Below are positions 3,181-54,762 of a stretch of 57,642 nt of DNA, in pieces; within the stretch, counting starts at the first letter, position 1; each line of letters starts with the position of its first letter. Below the pieces are notes generated by a model. That model did not search any database, was not told the origin of the DNA, and saw nothing but the letters and a program-made list of their open reading frames with translations. The DNA is taken from NCBI GenBank assembly GCA_030530145.1, contig JAUMVN010000003.1:128810-186451 (forward strand). The letters run 5' to 3'. Both the position numbers and the translations under genes were made by a program. The stretch is from Coriobacteriia bacterium. Its GTDB lineage: Bacteria > Actinomycetota > Coriobacteriia > Coriobacteriales > Atopobiaceae.

Positions 3181-3933
3181 ATGGACCAGCATGAGATCGA
3201 TGAGGCTGTTGATCAGCTTCTTGAGGAAACCCATTCAATGGGGTTGAAGTGCCCTGAGGATAGAGCTCGTAAGATGGTTCGTCATCTTGAGTTGGTTATT
3301 GAGAAGAACAAAGTCATGAACCTCACGAGAATCGTCACTCTGAGAGACGCTGTGACGCTTCATATTGTTGACTCCCTTGTCCCACTCCTGACAAAAGATT
3401 TCAACCCCTCAGAAGGGCTTAGGTTTGTTGACATTGGAACAGGTGCAGGATTTCCTGGTATTCCACTTGCCATTTTGACCGGGATGGACGGTACGTTCAT
3501 CGATTCTGTAGGTAAGAAGATCGCTGCTGTAAATGAGTTTATTCAGGTGCTTGGTCTTGATAACTGTCGGGCAGTCTCGACGAGAGCAGAGATGCTTGCG
3601 ATCGAAGAGCCGTCTGTTTATGACTACGTCTGTGCCCGTGCTGTTGCTCAGAGCAATGTTCTCATTGAATATGCGACCCCGCTTCTTAAGTATGGTGGTC
3701 AGTTGATACTTGAGAAGGCTAATCCAACTGCTGAGGAGCTTGATAATGCAAATTATGCTGCCCAGGTTTGCGGCCTTGTCCGAGTTTCACGTGAAACATT
3801 CGAATTGCCTAGGGATCTTGGACATCGTGAGGTGTTGATCTATGAGAAGGATCATGAGGCGAGAATTCAACTGCCGCGTCGAAATGGATTGGCTAAATCT
3901 GATCCATTGTTAGCTCATAAAGGTCATAAGTAA
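3181..3933 (+). CDS. rsmG: 16S rRNA (guanine-N7) methyltransferase RsmG (GidB)
   Basis: A 250-residue SAM-dependent methyltransferase that modifies G527 of 16S rRNA. The SAM-binding motif reads VDIGTGAGFPGIPLAIL near residues 83-99, and the NLTRI segment upstream is characteristic of the family. Start ATG at 3181 follows TCAGGAGTC. The gene is A/T-richer than the flanking genome. A near-perfect parS (AGTTTCACGTGAAACA) is embedded in the coding sequence at 3783-3798, which constrains the codons for VSRETF. Confidence 0.96.
   Translation: MDQHEIDEAVDQLLEETHSMGLKCPEDRARKMVRHLELVIEKNKVMNLTRIVTLRDAVTLHIVDSLVPLLTKDFNPSEGLRFVDIGTGAGFPGIPLAILTGMDGTFIDSVGKKIAAVNEFIQVLGLDNCRAVSTRAEMLAIEEPSVYDYVCARAVAQSNVLIEYATPLLKYGGQLILEKANPTAEELDNANYAAQVCGLVRVSRETFELPRDLGHREVLIYEKDHEARIQLPRRNGLAKSDPLLAHKGHK
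3783..3798. other. parS-like site inside rsmG
   Basis: AGTTTCACGTGAAACA matches the parS consensus TGTTTCACGTGAAACA at 15 of 16 positions (first base differs). It is one of four close matches within 300 bp. Confidence 0.8.
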
Positions 3934-14443: not shown

Positions 14444-15520
14444 ATGTCCGACGCCAAAGAGACCAAGCACATCACCTACGCCGAGGCCGGTGTCGACACC
14501 GCCGAGGGCGCCCGCGCCGTCGACTGCATCAAGGACGCCGTGAAGGCGACCAACCGCCCCGAGGTCATCGGCGGCCTCGGCGGGTTCGGCAGCTGCTTCT
14601 CCATGAAGGGCTTCAAGGACATGGAGGACCCGGTGCTCGTCTCGGGCACCGACGGCGTGGGCACCAAGCTCGCTATCGCGCAGCTGCTCGACCGCCACGA
14701 CACCGTGGGCGAGGACCTCGTGGCTATGTGCGTCGACGATGTCGTGCCCATCGGCGCCGAGCCGCTCTTCTTCCTTGATTACGTGGCCATCGGCAAGCTC
14801 CGCGCCGAGCACGTGGCCGAGATAGTCAAGGGCATCGCCGAGGGCTGCAAGAAGTCCGGCTGCGCGCTCGTCGGCGGCGAGATGGCCGAGCACCCCGGCG
14901 TCATGAACCCGGACGACTACGACCTCGCCGGCTTCGTGGTGGGCGTCGTCGACCGAACGAAGATGATCGGCCCTGAGAAGGTCAAGGCCGGCGACGTCAT
15001 CCTCGCCCTGCCTTCTTCCGGCATCCACTCCAACGGCTACTCGCTCGTGCGCAAGGTCGCCATCGAGGGCAAGACGGTCGAGGAGCTGAACGAGCCCCTG
15101 GACGAGCTCAGCGGCGAGTCGCTGGCCGACGCCGTGCTGCGCCCGACGACCATCTACGCCGGCGGCCTCGTGGCAGCCTTGCGCGCGGGCGCCCCGATCC
15201 ACGCGATGGCGCACATCACCGGCGGCGGCATCACCGAGAACCTCAACCGCGCGCTTCCCGCGGACGTCGACGCGCTCGTGTACCGCGGCGGCGAGGACGG
15301 CCCCGCATGGGACATGCCGCCCGTGATCCCGTACATGGTCAAGGCCGCGGGCCTCACCCTCGACGAGGCGTACCGCACCTTCAACATGGGCGTGGGCATG
15401 AGCATCATCTGCGCGCCCGAGGATCAGGCCGAGGTCGAGGCCAAGCTTCGCGAGCAGGGCTTCGAGCCGTTCGTCATGGGTGAGTGCGTGCCCGGCTCCG
15501 GTGAGGTGATCTATCGATGA
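14444..15520 (+). CDS. purM: Phosphoribosylformylglycinamidine cyclo-ligase (AIR synthetase) PurM
   Basis: A 358-residue ATP-dependent cyclase making AIR. The N-terminal TYAEAGVDTAEG, the GGFGSCFSM segment, VSGTDGVGTKL, MCVDDVVPIGAEPLFFLDY, GGEMAEHPGVM and ITGGGITENLNRALP are all PurM signatures. Length is normal. It is one base after purF and overlaps purN by 4 bp (ATGA), indicating translational coupling along the operon. Confidence 0.97.
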   Translation: MSDAKETKHITYAEAGVDTAEGARAVDCIKDAVKATNRPEVIGGLGGFGSCFSMKGFKDMEDPVLVSGTDGVGTKLAIAQLLDRHDTVGEDLVAMCVDDVVPIGAEPLFFLDYVAIGKLRAEHVAEIVKGIAEGCKKSGCALVGGEMAEHPGVMNPDDYDLAGFVVGVVDRTKMIGPEKVKAGDVILALPSSGIHSNGYSLVRKVAIEGKTVEELNEPLDELSGESLADAVLRPTTIYAGGLVAALRAGAPIHAMAHITGGGITENLNRALPADVDALVYRGGEDGPAWDMPPVIPYMVKAAGLTLDEAYRTFNMGVGMSIICAPEDQAEVEAKLREQGFEPFVMGECVPGSGEVIYR

Positions 15521-16179
15521 GCCATTGGAGCTGCGAGGGCGGCGTTTGCCGCCTGGTCGAGGACGACGAGCCGCTAAAAATCGGCGTGCTTCTTTCCGGG
15601 TCGGGCACGAACCTGCAGGCGATCATCGATCGCATTGCGGATGGCAGTTTGAACGCCGAGATTGCCCTGGTGGTCTCCAGCCGCCCGGGCGTGAAGGGCA
15701 TCGAGCGCGCCCAGGCCGCCGGCCTGCCGGTGCTCGTCATGGAGAAGTCCGAGTACGTCGCCGACGCCGAGGCAGCGGACGCGAAGATCGCGGCCGCGCT
15801 CACGGAGGCCGGCTGCGAGTACGTGATCATGGCGGGCTACATGCGCATGGTCCGCACCCCGCTGCTCGAGGCCTTCCCGAACCGCATCGTGAACCTGCAC
15901 CCGGCGCTTCTCCCCAGCTTCAAGGGGGCGCACGCCATCCAGGACGCGTTCGACTACGGCGCGAAGGTCACGGGCGTGACCGTTCACTTCGCCGACGATA
16001 AGTACGATTGCGGTCCCATCATCGCCCAGCGCGCGCTGCCGGTGGAGGAGGGTTGGACCGTCGATGAGCTCGAGGAGCACATCCATGCCATCGAGCACGA
16101 GCTCTACCCCGAGGTCATCGGCTGGCTCGCCGCTGGCCGTGTCCGCGTGGCCGAGGACGGCCGCGTGTCCATCGCCTAG
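15517..16179 (+). CDS. purN: Phosphoribosylglycinamide formyltransferase PurN
   Basis: A 220-residue formyltetrahydrofolate-dependent GAR transformylase. The family core starts at LKIGVLLSGSGTNLQAIID and includes the catalytic NLHPALLPSFKGAHAI with Asn/His and the conserved Asp in DKYDCGPII. There is a roughly 20-residue N-terminal extension (MSHWSCEGGVCRLVEDDEP) with two cysteines not expected in typical PurN; because the ATG overlaps the purM stop, the extension is probably real. Last gene of the operon. Confidence 0.94.
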   Translation: MSHWSCEGGVCRLVEDDEPLKIGVLLSGSGTNLQAIIDRIADGSLNAEIALVVSSRPGVKGIERAQAAGLPVLVMEKSEYVADAEAADAKIAAALTEAGCEYVIMAGYMRMVRTPLLEAFPNRIVNLHPALLPSFKGAHAIQDAFDYGAKVTGVTVHFADDKYDCGPIIAQRALPVEEGWTVDELEEHIHAIEHELYPEVIGWLAAGRVRVAEDGRVSIA

Positions 16180-16205
16180 CTGCCCGCGAATCAATCAAAG
16201 ACCCG

Positions 16206-16250
16206 CGCGCCGCGCCGAGAGATGCTTCTCTCGGCGCGGCGCGTCTTCTT
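16206..16250 (+). terminator. Terminator of the purine operon
   Basis: A 17-bp perfect GC-rich stem (CGCGCCGCGCCGAGAGA and its complement at 16227-16243), TGCT loop, then TCTTCTT. It sits 27 bp after purN. Confidence 0.85.
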
Positions 16251-16265
16251 ATGGGCTTCAGCAGG

Positions 16266-16337
16266 ATCTCTACCGCTCCAGAATGACGTTTCCGTCCTCT
16301 GTGGGGCCAAGAAATCGCATTCTGGAGCGGTAGAGAT
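16266..16337. repeat. 72-bp hairpin repeat, copy A (left flank of HTH-HipA cassette)
   Basis: Two 20-bp arms, 16266-16285 and 16318-16337, are perfect inverted repeats (ATCTCTACCGCTCCAGAATG and its complement) around a 32-nt centre containing GTGGGGCCAAGAAATCG. The whole unit recurs at 17816-17887 with a single base difference. The two copies are in the same orientation and bracket one gene. Confidence 0.95.
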
Positions 16338-16362
16338 ATCAAATGCCTCGGGCGCGCGAAGA

Positions 16363-16428
16363 GTTTAGATAAAACTATTCGTCAAAACGAATGGTTTTAT
16401 CTAAACTTAGCAACAGAAACTATTCGTC
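16363..16428. promoter_or_regulatory. Palindromic operator upstream of the HTH-HipA gene
   Basis: GTTTAGATAAAACTATTCGT (16363-16382) and its near-complement at 16387-16406 form a 20-bp inverted repeat with 19 of 20 matches and a 4-nt centre. The 12-mer AAACTATTCGTC inside it (16372-16383) is repeated directly at 16417-16428, just before the GGGAGGA ribosome site. This three-half-site layout is typical of an operator for a self-repressing HTH protein. The sequence is far more A/T-rich than its surroundings. Confidence 0.7.
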
Positions 16429-16439
16429 TGGGAGGAACT

Positions 16440-17780
16440 ATGCTCACCACGGAAGAGGCGGCTCGACGACTTGGTATAACGCGGCGCAGGGTGCAGGTGC
16501 TCGCTGCAGACGGATTGCTGACGGGCGAGAAGATCTCGGGCTCGTGGTTCATCGACGAGGCTTCGGTGGAGGCGCGGCTGGCCAACGTGAATAAAGAAGG
16601 TGGCCGCCCACGTCGTGGTCGGGCTCGGGGCGAGACGACCTTTACCCTCATGAACAGGGGCCATGAGGTTGCGCGCGTCGTCTACAGCTCGGAGAGGAAG
16701 GAATTCACGGGATTTCTGGGCGATATCGATCGGTCTCGTGCACCCGTTGGGCTGATTCCCGAGAAGGCAAACATGTCCCTCAGGGATTTCAACGATTGGT
16801 GGCGCGGCAGGGGGATTCCGTCTGCCCGCATGGGCCTCTCGGCGCTGCTCACGGAGCTTGGGGCGGACTTCCCGGAGGAGCTCCTGCAAAGAAACCTCGG
16901 GCTTTCCCTTTCCGATCAGTATTGGATCTGCCCCGACGGGTCCGGGTTGAAGTGGAAAGATATCAACTTCTTTAACAACGACTTCGATGAGGCGTCGCTC
17001 TCCATTGAACCCTTCGCTGTTGATGGCAAGTCGGCGGTGGCCACTCCGGACAACACGTCGGACGGTAACCTGCCCAAACGCTGGGTGTGCCGCAACGGCA
17101 CGCGTGCGCTGCTTAAAGGTGGGTCTTCCTACGGTCAGGAGCCTTACAACGAGGTTGTGGCCACGGCTCTTCACCGCCGCCTGCTCAAGGAGGGCGAGTA
17201 CGTGCCGTATGCGCTGGAGGGCGAGGGCGCTAATGCATTGAGCTGCTGCGCGGAGTATCTTGCCGATGAAGAGGAGTACGTCCCGGCCGTATACGTGGAG
17301 CGGGTGCTGGAGCAGGCGGCGAACCGCAACGACTTCGAGCATTATCTCGACTGCTGCGAGGCGCTCGGCGTTCACGCCGCGCGGCCCGCGCTCGAGCGGA
17401 TGATCGTATGCGACGACATGATCGCGAACCATGACCGCCACCGCCGCAACTTCGGCATCGTGCGAAACGTCGAGACCCTGCAATGCCGCCCCGCCCCGAT
17501 CTTCGACTCAGGTTCCTCGCTCTGGTGCGATGTGGGGACGTCTCGCCTCGCGGCGGGCGAGCATAGCTTCGTGAGCAGGCAGTTCTTCGAGAGCCCTGCT
17601 CACCAGATGCTTCTCGTCGAGGATATGAGCTGGTTTAGCGCCGATGCGCTGGAGGGCTTCATCGACGAGGCGATAGGGATTCTTTCTGCCAACGACGCGC
17701 TATTGGCCCGCTTGCCGTATCTTCGCGACGCCCTCGCCTGGCGCGTGGGACGCATGATCGACATCGCGGAGTGGGGCTGA
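16440..17780 (+). CDS. HTH domain fused to HipA-like protein kinase (single-protein)
   Basis: A 446-residue protein. Residues about 1-55 are an excisionase/MerR-like winged HTH (LTTEEAARRLGITRRRVQVLAADGLL ... GSWFIDEASV). A basic linker (GGRPRRGRARGE) leads to a kinase region. Kinase features: candidate ATP-binding Lys in ALLKGGSSYGQEPYNEV (about K226), catalytic loop IANHDRHRRNFGIV (N330, D332, H334, N337), and metal-binding IFDSG (D356). These match the HipA_C/CtkA-type Ser/Thr kinase fold. In HipBA the DNA-binding antitoxin is a separate protein; here HTH and kinase are one chain and no separate HipB is adjacent. A palindromic operator precedes it and 72-bp repeats flank it. Substrate and role (toxin-antitoxin, defence or regulation) are unknown. 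Confidence 0.82.
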   Translation: MLTTEEAARRLGITRRRVQVLAADGLLTGEKISGSWFIDEASVEARLANVNKEGGRPRRGRARGETTFTLMNRGHEVARVVYSSERKEFTGFLGDIDRSRAPVGLIPEKANMSLRDFNDWWRGRGIPSARMGLSALLTELGADFPEELLQRNLGLSLSDQYWICPDGSGLKWKDINFFNNDFDEASLSIEPFAVDGKSAVATPDNTSDGNLPKRWVCRNGTRALLKGGSSYGQEPYNEVVATALHRRLLKEGEYVPYALEGEGANALSCCAEYLADEEEYVPAVYVERVLEQAANRNDFEHYLDCCEALGVHAARPALERMIVCDDMIANHDRHRRNFGIVRNVETLQCRPAPIFDSGSSLWCDVGTSRLAAGEHSFVSRQFFESPAHQMLLVEDMSWFSADALEGFIDEAIGILSANDALLARLPYLRDALAWRVGRMIDIAEWG

Positions 17781-17815
17781 GCCGGCTCGGCCCCGCCGAG
17801 ACTCGGCCGACGGAG

Positions 17816-17887
17816 ATCTCTGCCGCTCCAGAATGACGTTTCCGTCCTCTGTGGGGCCAAGAAATCGCATTCTGGAGCGGTAGAGAT
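17816..17887. repeat. 72-bp hairpin repeat, copy B (right flank of HTH-HipA cassette)
   Basis: This copy is 71/72 identical to copy A at 16266-16337; the only change is TACC to TGCC in the left arm, at one stem position. It follows the kinase stop by 35 bp and precedes the converging DeoR gene. There is no T-run, so it is not an obvious terminator. Confidence 0.95.
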
Positions 17888-17926
17888 TCATGAAGGGTTG
17901 TTTACGGGCGGTCGCTGCCGCCGGTC

Positions 17927-18703
17927 TTAGACGCGGCGGATCTCGTGGATGCCGGCGTCGAGAAGGACGGCAATGTCCTCGTCGGTGGCGTCCTTATCGG
18001 TGATGAGCAGGTTCACCTGCGAGAGGTCCGCGTAGCTGAAGCCGGCGCTCACGCCGAGCTTGGTCGACGCGGCAAGAAGCACCAGGCGGTCGCTTCTCTC
18101 CACCATGAGCGAGTTGACGATGGCCTCCTGCTGGGTGGTCGAGGTCACGCCGGCGGTCAGCGAGATGCCGCCGCAGCCGACGAAGCAGGTGCTCGCCGCC
18201 ACGCTGCGGATGTTCGCGAGCGCGAACTCGCCCGAGAGCACGCCGCGCGGCGGGCGCACCTCGCCCCCGGTGACGAGTACCATGCCGCCCTCGGGGACGG
18301 TGAGGTCCTGGCCGTGCATGCTGTTCGTCACGATGGTCACGCCGTGGGACTTTATGTGCTTGACCGTGGCGAGCGCCGTGGTGGAGGTGTTGACGAAGAG
18401 CAGCTCGTTGTCGTCCACGAGGTCCGCGGCGGCCTCGGCGATGCGCTCCTTGATGACCTTGCTCGGGGAGTAGGCGGGCGAGCCGCCGAGCATCTCGTCG
18501 CCCTCGACGAGGACGGCCTCGCCGTAGCGGCGGCTCACGAGCCCGCGGCCCTCGAGCTCGTCGAGGTCGCGGCGCACGGTCAGGGTCGAGATGCCGAGTT
18601 TCTCGGCGAGCTCGCTCACGCCGGCGCGGCCCTTCTCGCGCAGGATGCGCAGGATGGTCTGACGACGCTGCTCGACGAAGCTGCGGCTTTTCTTCTCTGC
18701 CAT
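17927..18703 (-). CDS. DeoR-family transcriptional regulator, probable regulator of the ascorbate-type PTS locus
   Basis: A 258-residue DeoR regulator. The start MAEKKSRSFVEQRRQTILRILRE at 18703 gives the normal DeoR N-terminus; the 23-codon upstream extension lacks support. The winged HTH (VSELAEKLGISTLTVRRDLDELEGRGLVSRRYG) is followed by a sugar-phosphate sensing domain with VNTSTTALATVKHI, VTNSMHGQDL, VLVTGGEVRPPRGVLSG and AASTKLGVSAGFSYADLSQV. DeoR proteins usually repress divergent sugar operons and respond to phosphorylated intermediates. It is divergent from the EIIA-EIIC-EIIB operon, so a UlaR-like role is inferred. Confidence 0.88.
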   Translation of the reverse strand: MAEKKSRSFVEQRRQTILRILREKGRAGVSELAEKLGISTLTVRRDLDELEGRGLVSRRYGEAVLVEGDEMLGGSPAYSPSKVIKERIAEAAADLVDDNELLFVNTSTTALATVKHIKSHGVTIVTNSMHGQDLTVPEGGMVLVTGGEVRPPRGVLSGEFALANIRSVAASTCFVGCGGISLTAGVTSTTQQEAIVNSLMVERSDRLVLLAASTKLGVSAGFSYADLSQVNLLITDKDATDEDIAVLLDAGIHEIRRV

Positions 18704-18781
18704 GGCTGCTGCCCTGATCCTTTCCCCGGGGGTTGAATTTAAGTGTATAGGAGACGTGCCGCCCATATTCACATAGGGTTT

Positions 18782-25629: not shown

Positions 25630-25640
25630 CTACCTGAATT

Positions 25641-25716
25641 ATCTGACGGGATTACCACAGCCGTTCCGGCCCCGAATTGGGCTCCTAACCGCTGTGATAA
25701 TCCCGTCAGATTTTTC
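25641..25716 (+). terminator. Long-stem inverted repeat and terminator after the PTS operon
   Basis: Arms 25641-25661 and 25691-25711 are 20/21 complementary (ATCTGACGGGATTA at the base) around a 29-nt centre with GGCCCCGAATTGGGC, followed by TTTTTC. It resembles in size (71 bp) the hairpin repeats flanking the HTH-HipA gene, though the sequence is different. Confidence 0.75.
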
Positions 25717-25765
25717 AGCTCCCTGTATCTATGGTTTTTGGTGAGAAGAACGGCTGATGCGGCGG

Positions 25766-54690: not shown

Positions 54691-54762
54691 AACTTGAAAT
54701 TAATGGCGAATGCTACACTTATTTCAAGAAATAAGTGTTCGAATCGACATAAATTTCAAGTT
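54691..54762. promoter_or_regulatory. Nested inverted repeats upstream of the DUF4143-type ATPase
   Basis: Outer arms AACTTGAAATT (54691-54701) and AATTTCAAGTT (54752-54762) are perfect complements. Between them ACACTTATTTC-AA-GAAATAAGTGT (54715-54738) is a perfect 11-bp palindrome. The right outer arm abuts the GGGGG ribosome region of the next gene. Layout suggests an operator pair or an RNA fold hiding the ribosome site. Confidence 0.6.

Follow-up and report, generated by a model that had tools for sequence, protein, structure and literature searches.

The origin and spread of REP-like palindromes are an open question that has so far been tied to the RAYT transposases. The nearest known kinds of palindrome system are the REPtrons, in which REPs accompany a RAYT (TnpA-REP) gene, and the TIRtrons, in which RAYT-like genes are located between long inverted repeats; in the portions of the literature on which this comparison draws (PMC8266576, PMC3733652), the difference from the system considered here is the protein. 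No description of a system made of such palindromes and an AbiEi-like gene was recognised in the open-access literature.

The window, a stretch of 57,642 nt (G000:C26:128810-186451) from a Coriobacteriia genome (G000) whose assembly comprises 2.47 Mb in 57 contigs, carries two 72-bp palindromic units around a kinase gene (Table 1). On balance, these units are regarded as scattered copies of a species-specific palindrome spread by the nuclease-like 343-aa protein (P0001) of a palindrome-gene-palindrome source unit on contig C57. The gene and its palindromes make up matched units that are specific to a species; at conserved sites such units vary as a whole, and solo copies of the palindromes are dispersed.

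Table 1. Features of the kinase locus (window positions) and location of the source unit in the same genome
Feature	Position	Strand	Basis or remark
Left neighbour, purN-type formyltransferase	15517-16179		
Unit 1 of the 72-bp palindrome (ATCTCTACCGCTC...GAGCGGTAGAGAT)	16266-16337	+	Sequence comparison, covariance model
Spacer, 24-nt, unit 1 to operator	16338-16361		
Operator-like palindrome with a 4-nt loop and 95% complementary arms of 21 nt	16362-16407		AAAACTATTCGT-type motif
Second copy of operator half AAACTATTCGTC, directly before start codon	16417-16428	+	
HTH_17 + HipA/CtkA-like kinase gene, 446-aa	16440-17780	+	Pfam, PDB CtkA, PADLOC
Spacer, 35-nt, kinase gene to unit 2	17781-17815		
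Unit 2 of the 72-bp palindrome	17816-17887	+	71/72 identical to unit 1
Right neighbour, DeoR-type regulator	17927-18772	minus	
Source unit, palindrome - 343-aa gene - palindrome	G000:C57:39071-40335		

The Palindrome Pair and the Kinase Gene

The two units have the same orientation and differ at a single position, and their identity ends at the unit edges (73 nt with one flanking G); the outer arms of unit 1 are perfect over 20 bp, and its 27-nt arms are 89% complementary. A sequence-only reading of the window had claimed two near-identical, direct 72-bp hairpin repeats, made of 20-bp inverted arms, around one gene with its own operator, and this description stands. The same reading assigns the genes beyond the DeoR-type regulator to a putative PTS operon. 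Unit 1 is identical to the nine other 72-bp copies of the genome at 50-56 of 72 positions, taken in the better orientation of each, in comparison to 71/72 within the window pair, which is therefore exceptional; the best pair among the remaining copies reaches 61 of 72. Judging from these sequence identities, the window pair probably consists of the youngest scattered copies of the palindrome family in this genome. No Rfam match at the gathering score was found in window 15500-18600, and exact target-site duplications of 2-12 nt, proposed in the sequence-only reading as a check of mobility, were found at 0/11 unit copies and were likewise absent around the unit-kinase-unit composite.

The single ORF between the units is the kinase gene, whose product matches HTH_17 above the Pfam cut-off (E 9.8e-8) and HipA_C with 22.3 bits, under the curated cut-off of 30.5; its catalytic stretch is matched by CtkA (PDB 3akj, E 4.9e-4) and the protein by PADLOC PDC-M03A (2e-14). 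The features in common with HipA/CtkA kinases are the HipA_C stretch, a CtkA-like motif around NxDRHxxN and an APIFD motif (motifs read by eye); in contrast to these kinases, the window protein has HTH_17 fused to the kinase chain, and no separate HipB gene is present between the units. A single-sequence structure model of the kinase, with a mean pLDDT of 38.7, was set aside.

Dispersed Copies in the Genome and in Relatives

A covariance model of the unit, built from ten own-genome copies including both window units, identifies 12 places in the genome, of which 11 measure exactly 72 bp and one, a weak match, 73 bp. Where the surroundings of solo copies were read, the genes on either side are unrelated. 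The sequence-only reading had allowed that a unit scattered widely and unconnected with cargo would speak against a cassette, and this applies by half: most of the 12 places are cargo-free, and one further pair brackets the 343-aa gene on C57.

A wider model, based on 18 copies from two genera, matches 20/39 genomes examined; the matches in the same genus and in several genomes of genus g33 are mostly palindromes of exactly 72 bp, with arms that vary by lineage. In the alignment of 18 palindromes, standard pairs occupy 83.5% of pair cells and 21/28 pairs have changes on both sides, with a covariation score of 0.47 vs 0.14 for shuffled alignments and <=0.16 when slid. Close palindrome pairs bracket one homologous gene in the own genome (P0001 on C57), in G001 and in G095, and the solo copies best match the bracket of their own species (G000 10/10, G001 3/3, G095 4/4). 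Among the solo copies of G097, 0/9 are strictly own-best, the sister species G095 being matched at least as well as the single known bracket copy of G097. In G095, the interval corresponding to one of the G097 palindromes lacks that palindrome, and in another interval G104 has a palindrome of its own type, in alignments of G097, G095 and G104 that are too diverged for a clean junction.

The location of solo copies between unrelated genes and the further close pairs on C57 are also what would be seen if ordinary REP- or MITE-like palindromes had piled up intergenically and two sister copies had come to flank the kinase by chance. This explanation is considered rather unlikely, as the window units are each other's near-identical closest copies in direct orientation, target-site duplications are absent, and the only RAYT match of the genome, on contig C52, adjoins repeats of another kind, with no unit in the 8 kb scanned; with this, RAYT as the mobiliser of the unit was rejected. 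The match itself, the sole one of RAYT type (PF01797) in the genome, lies at G000:C52:19877-20209 (locus L105) and adjoins another repeat, which contains CTCTCAAATGAGAG.

A pattern scan across a genome contig collection, from which own or very near records were possibly excluded, returned 28 stretches, all from unrelated bacteria by their record titles and judged to be chance matches.

Other palindromes and short sites are present in the window. An 85-bp palindrome (25634-25718) lies between two genes, has arms unrelated to those of the 72-bp unit and shows no second copy in the own-genome DNA examined; a further palindrome of exactly 72 bp (54691-54762) has AT-rich and equally unrelated arms. 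Sites resembling TGTTTCACGTGAAACA, which we take to be the parS motif, occur with <=3 mismatches at 3783, 3965, 4033, 4060 and 7029 and suggest that the start of the window may lie near the replication origin.

The 343-aa Protein Family and Its Palindromes

Relatives of P0001 are encoded in 91/140 genomes of the bacterial family, belonging to 19/35 genera, and no viral or phage relatives were found; the protein family is widespread and apparently unnamed. The palindromes of the source unit are alike at 56 of 72 positions, no more than other pairs. Ninety loci were analysed, 30 supplied by the search and 60 taken from further rows of the ranked list, so that the sample leans to better matches. 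With a palindrome defined by a score >=14 and a span >=50 within 450 bp of the gene, one was found upstream at 52/90 loci, downstream at 49/88, on both sides at 37/88 and on either side at 62/88; the other 26/88 loci have none by this definition. The corresponding values for purN control loci are 4/19 for either side and 0/19 for both, first-order random sequences gave 0/264, and 20,000 random genomic segments of 1030 bp drawn from 244.5 kb gave 9.9% for either side and 0.27% for both.

The left and right palindromes match each other (>=0.5) in 36/36 brackets compared, vs 26/1260 comparisons between loci, and the brackets are direct in 23 cases and inverted in 13. For the proteins, which were extracted for 84/90 loci, similarity follows that of the palindromes with a Mantel r of 0.67, reached by 0/999 permutations (n=58), while the Spearman coefficient is only 0.19; shared ancestry of loci at one site accounts for part of the correlation. 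The fraction of pairs with alike palindromes (>=0.5) is 0% at protein identity below 0.5, 1% at 0.5-0.6, 0% at 0.6-0.7, 56% at 0.7-0.8 and 8/8 above 0.8; between loci, palindromes are alike only at a protein identity of about 70% or more. In the genome under study, three genes of the family (on C57, C19 and C18) are accompanied by three different palindromes.

In the loci bracketed on both sides, the distance between gene and upstream palindrome is 55-348 nt, and AbiEi represses from an inverted repeat, as reported in the part of PMC3985639 referred to here; both facts fit palindromes that serve in the regulation of the AbiEi-like gene, as operators, insulators or terminators, and are not parts of a spreading element. 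A matching palindrome is also present downstream of the gene, the palindromes recur at 12 to 22 places elsewhere and Rfam gives no match for the window units, which makes this function an improbable account of them.

The nature of the protein was considered in an alignment (A3) of 44 sequences, the 343-aa protein and 43 relatives. Its invariant residues include E209, S210, R213, Q227, D242, W245, E256, D258, G259, K262, R282, R284 and E285, and the C-terminus of the family follows the pattern E…D…ExD…K, a candidate PD-(D/E)XK-like block, as in DUF559/Vsr-type proteins. Pfam, NCBIfam, PADLOC, PHROGs and PDB gave no match supporting a nuclease domain, and the profile comparison with E. coli Vsr, a single sequence and thus of little power, was empty. 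PF01797 (HUH/Y1) does not match any of the 44 proteins up to E 10. At the N-terminus, the Pfam model AbiEi_4 matches 2/44 members weakly and AbiEi_1 matches 1/44, P0001 itself having neither. Overall, the family looks like a combination of an AbiEi-like (winged-helix) N-terminus and a nuclease-like C-terminal block. Recognition of a long palindrome by such an N-terminus would fit, since AbiEi binds a 23-3-23 bp inverted repeat according to the portion of PMC3985639 used here.

At the sequence level, Collinsella aerofaciens shows the same layout as the system of this genome. The record NZ_OY725717.1, labelled as a plasmid yet carrying ribosomal protein genes, encodes WP_148332043.1, a "hypothetical protein" 34.7% identical to P0001, whose gene is flanked by 2 copies of a 55-65-bp palindrome on one side and 4 on the other. 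This palindrome occurs at 22 places in the record; 18 arm-paired copies, grouped by eye into 7 clusters, were found in the 300 kb read out of 900 kb.

Different Units at the Same Chromosomal Site

Comparison of the flanks of 84 P0001-family loci revealed groups located at single chromosomal sites. In genus g33, the flanks on both sides of locus L270 recur at L271, L272, L275 and L277 (left 84-86%, right 88-90%, outermost left 71-76%), and between these flanks the proteins are 59-70% identical and the palindromes unalike (0.17-0.27), homology restarting 5-42 nt beyond the right palindrome. The C57 unit and that of G001 have downstream flanks that are 85.5% identical over 890 nt, around proteins 60% identical and palindromes with a similarity of 0.19; along C57, a first palindrome is followed by P0001, a second palindrome, a putative ABC transporter gene and a third palindrome, and synteny with G001 restarts ~110 nt past the last of these. 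For L235 and L237, whose proteins are 89% identical, synteny is lost inside the upstream palindrome, and some same-site pairs keep alike palindromes, as L252 and L255 (1.0). Whole gene-plus-palindrome units appear to be replaced at conserved sites; no transposition event was directly seen, and fast divergence in place could account for part of these same-site versions.

Relatives of the Kinase Locus

Four near relatives (G001, G103, G059 and G058) have purM-purN in common with the window, and the sequence that follows purN in the window is non-syntenic in them; for this reason no empty site between purN and deoR is readable there. The kinase relatives at 54-55% identity (G133, G127, G046 and G128) share with one another only ~1.43 kb, that is the operator and the gene (82.8% for G133-G128 and 73.5% for G133-G046), and a flank is also shared only by G127 and G128. 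The closest kinase relative met is WP_320677884.1 of C. aerofaciens (63% over 445 aa), which is preceded by a similar AAAACTATTCGT-type operator motif; palindromes are present 395 bp upstream, with a tRNA-Thr gene in between, and none downstream. The unit model R2 found the 72-bp unit in 0/7 other HTH-HipA contexts (L028, L029, L101-L103, L039 and L040). Among 28 HipA loci a palindrome is present on either side at 8 and on both sides at 1, in contrast to the nuclease-associated loci; the HipA loci of G104 and G099 have one palindrome ~229 nt downstream, with similarities to the G104 nuclease palindrome of 0.44 and 0.53.

These data bear on the mobile cassette proposed in the sequence-only reading. 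In a cassette proper, unit-kinase-unit would itself be mobile, having entered via recombination between 72-bp units or by palindrome-bounded exchange, with the kinase as selected cargo. Part of that proposal finds support: the window pair appears much younger than the other copies, its layout is shared by the palindrome-gene-palindrome units that surround a different gene here and in related genomes, units seem to be exchanged at palindrome edges and at conserved sites, the third palindrome of C57 sits where synteny restarts past a further gene, and the HTH-HipA relatives, which share operator and gene between unlike flanks, occupy differing places in each genome. Against it, no duplication surrounds the composite, no empty site was seen in the four non-syntenic relatives, the unit occurs at ten other places of the genome, and kinase relatives exist without it, including that of C. 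aerofaciens with its one-sided palindromes; a kinase cassette proper is doubtful. The kinase gene would seem to move also by means other than the 72-bp units, and its movement by way of them is possible.

Several HTH-HipA loci have repeats or palindromes of their own. The second HTH-HipA gene of the genome (on C55, 40% identical) has a perfect 25+25-nt palindrome upstream (L028 4518-4572), and palindromic operators of their own are present in other HTH-HipA relatives as well. A REP-like repeat, GTGAACAGGTACCCGTCCCCTGTTCAC, flanks the gene of G128 on both sides (L103 4171-4213 and 6608-6682), coinciding on one side with the synteny break relative to G127. Remnants composed of the operator and first codons, followed by a stop and unrelated sequence, are found in L172, L173 and L178 (G130, G135 and G126), and in C. 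aerofaciens a second gene, annotated as a HipA family toxin (L335 10196-11500), lies 7 kb from the HTH-HipA relative.

Proposed Mechanism

For the spread of the palindromes by the 343-aa protein, we infer recognition, cutting and copying by a protein with a nuclease fold, and any movement of the kinase, along the following lines. The N-terminal domain would recognise both arms of its own palindrome and the C-terminal domain would nick or cut it, possibly once the palindrome has been extruded as a hairpin; repair or recombination with another copy would spread and homogenise the palindromes, and protein and palindrome would thereby co-evolve as lock and key, like RAYT proteins and REPs. The kinase between the window units would be a passenger bracketed likewise, or enclosed through local copying. 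More generally, and with somewhat less confidence than doubt, the fusion of AbiEi-like DNA-binding and nuclease-like parts may form with its matched palindromes a lock-and-key module that is exchanged at fixed sites, seeds species-specific families across Coriobacteriia and now and then carries another gene, here the HTH-HipA kinase.

If this is true, a second, unrelated protein family has the same anatomy as the RAYT systems, and dozens of natural protein-palindrome pairs, along with the dispersed families specific to each species that match them, would make the question of origin and spread testable by swapping; in addition, a concrete testable function would be assigned to an uncharacterised gene family present in 91/140 genomes of the bacterial family and in C. 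aerofaciens.

Comparison with Known Systems

MITE-flanked passenger genes, such as the TIME elements, are similar by description in having one gene amid two near-identical short repeats; in contrast to them, the window composite has no target-site duplication and no known transposase, and the duplication by which a DDE-type MITE is recognised was found at 0/11 copies. AbiEi type IV antitoxins, in the part of PMC3985639 considered, bind a long inverted repeat and are similar in the weak N-terminal Pfam match of a few members; here, differently, the brackets read contain one gene each, the C-terminus is another one, and the palindromes lie on both sides and are dispersed. TIRtrons, within the extract of PMC3733652 on which we rely, share the location of a gene amid long palindromic repeats and the occurrence of solo families, but their protein is a tyrosine transposase and their repeats are inverted, whereas 23/36 brackets here are direct and 13/36 inverted.

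REPtrons, in what is drawn from PMC8266576 and PMC3733652, have in common with the present system species-specific intergenic palindromes, one bracketed gene and the co-evolution of protein and palindrome, and the gene here, as in a REPtron, is bracketed by palindromes of its own that also occur dispersed. Their palindromes, in the same excerpts, measure 20-40 bp in comparison to about 50-97 bp here, and the 343-aa protein differs in lacking HUH/Y1 by Pfam, the RAYT of the genome being located elsewhere with other repeats. The system looks like a REPtron type built on a non-RAYT protein.
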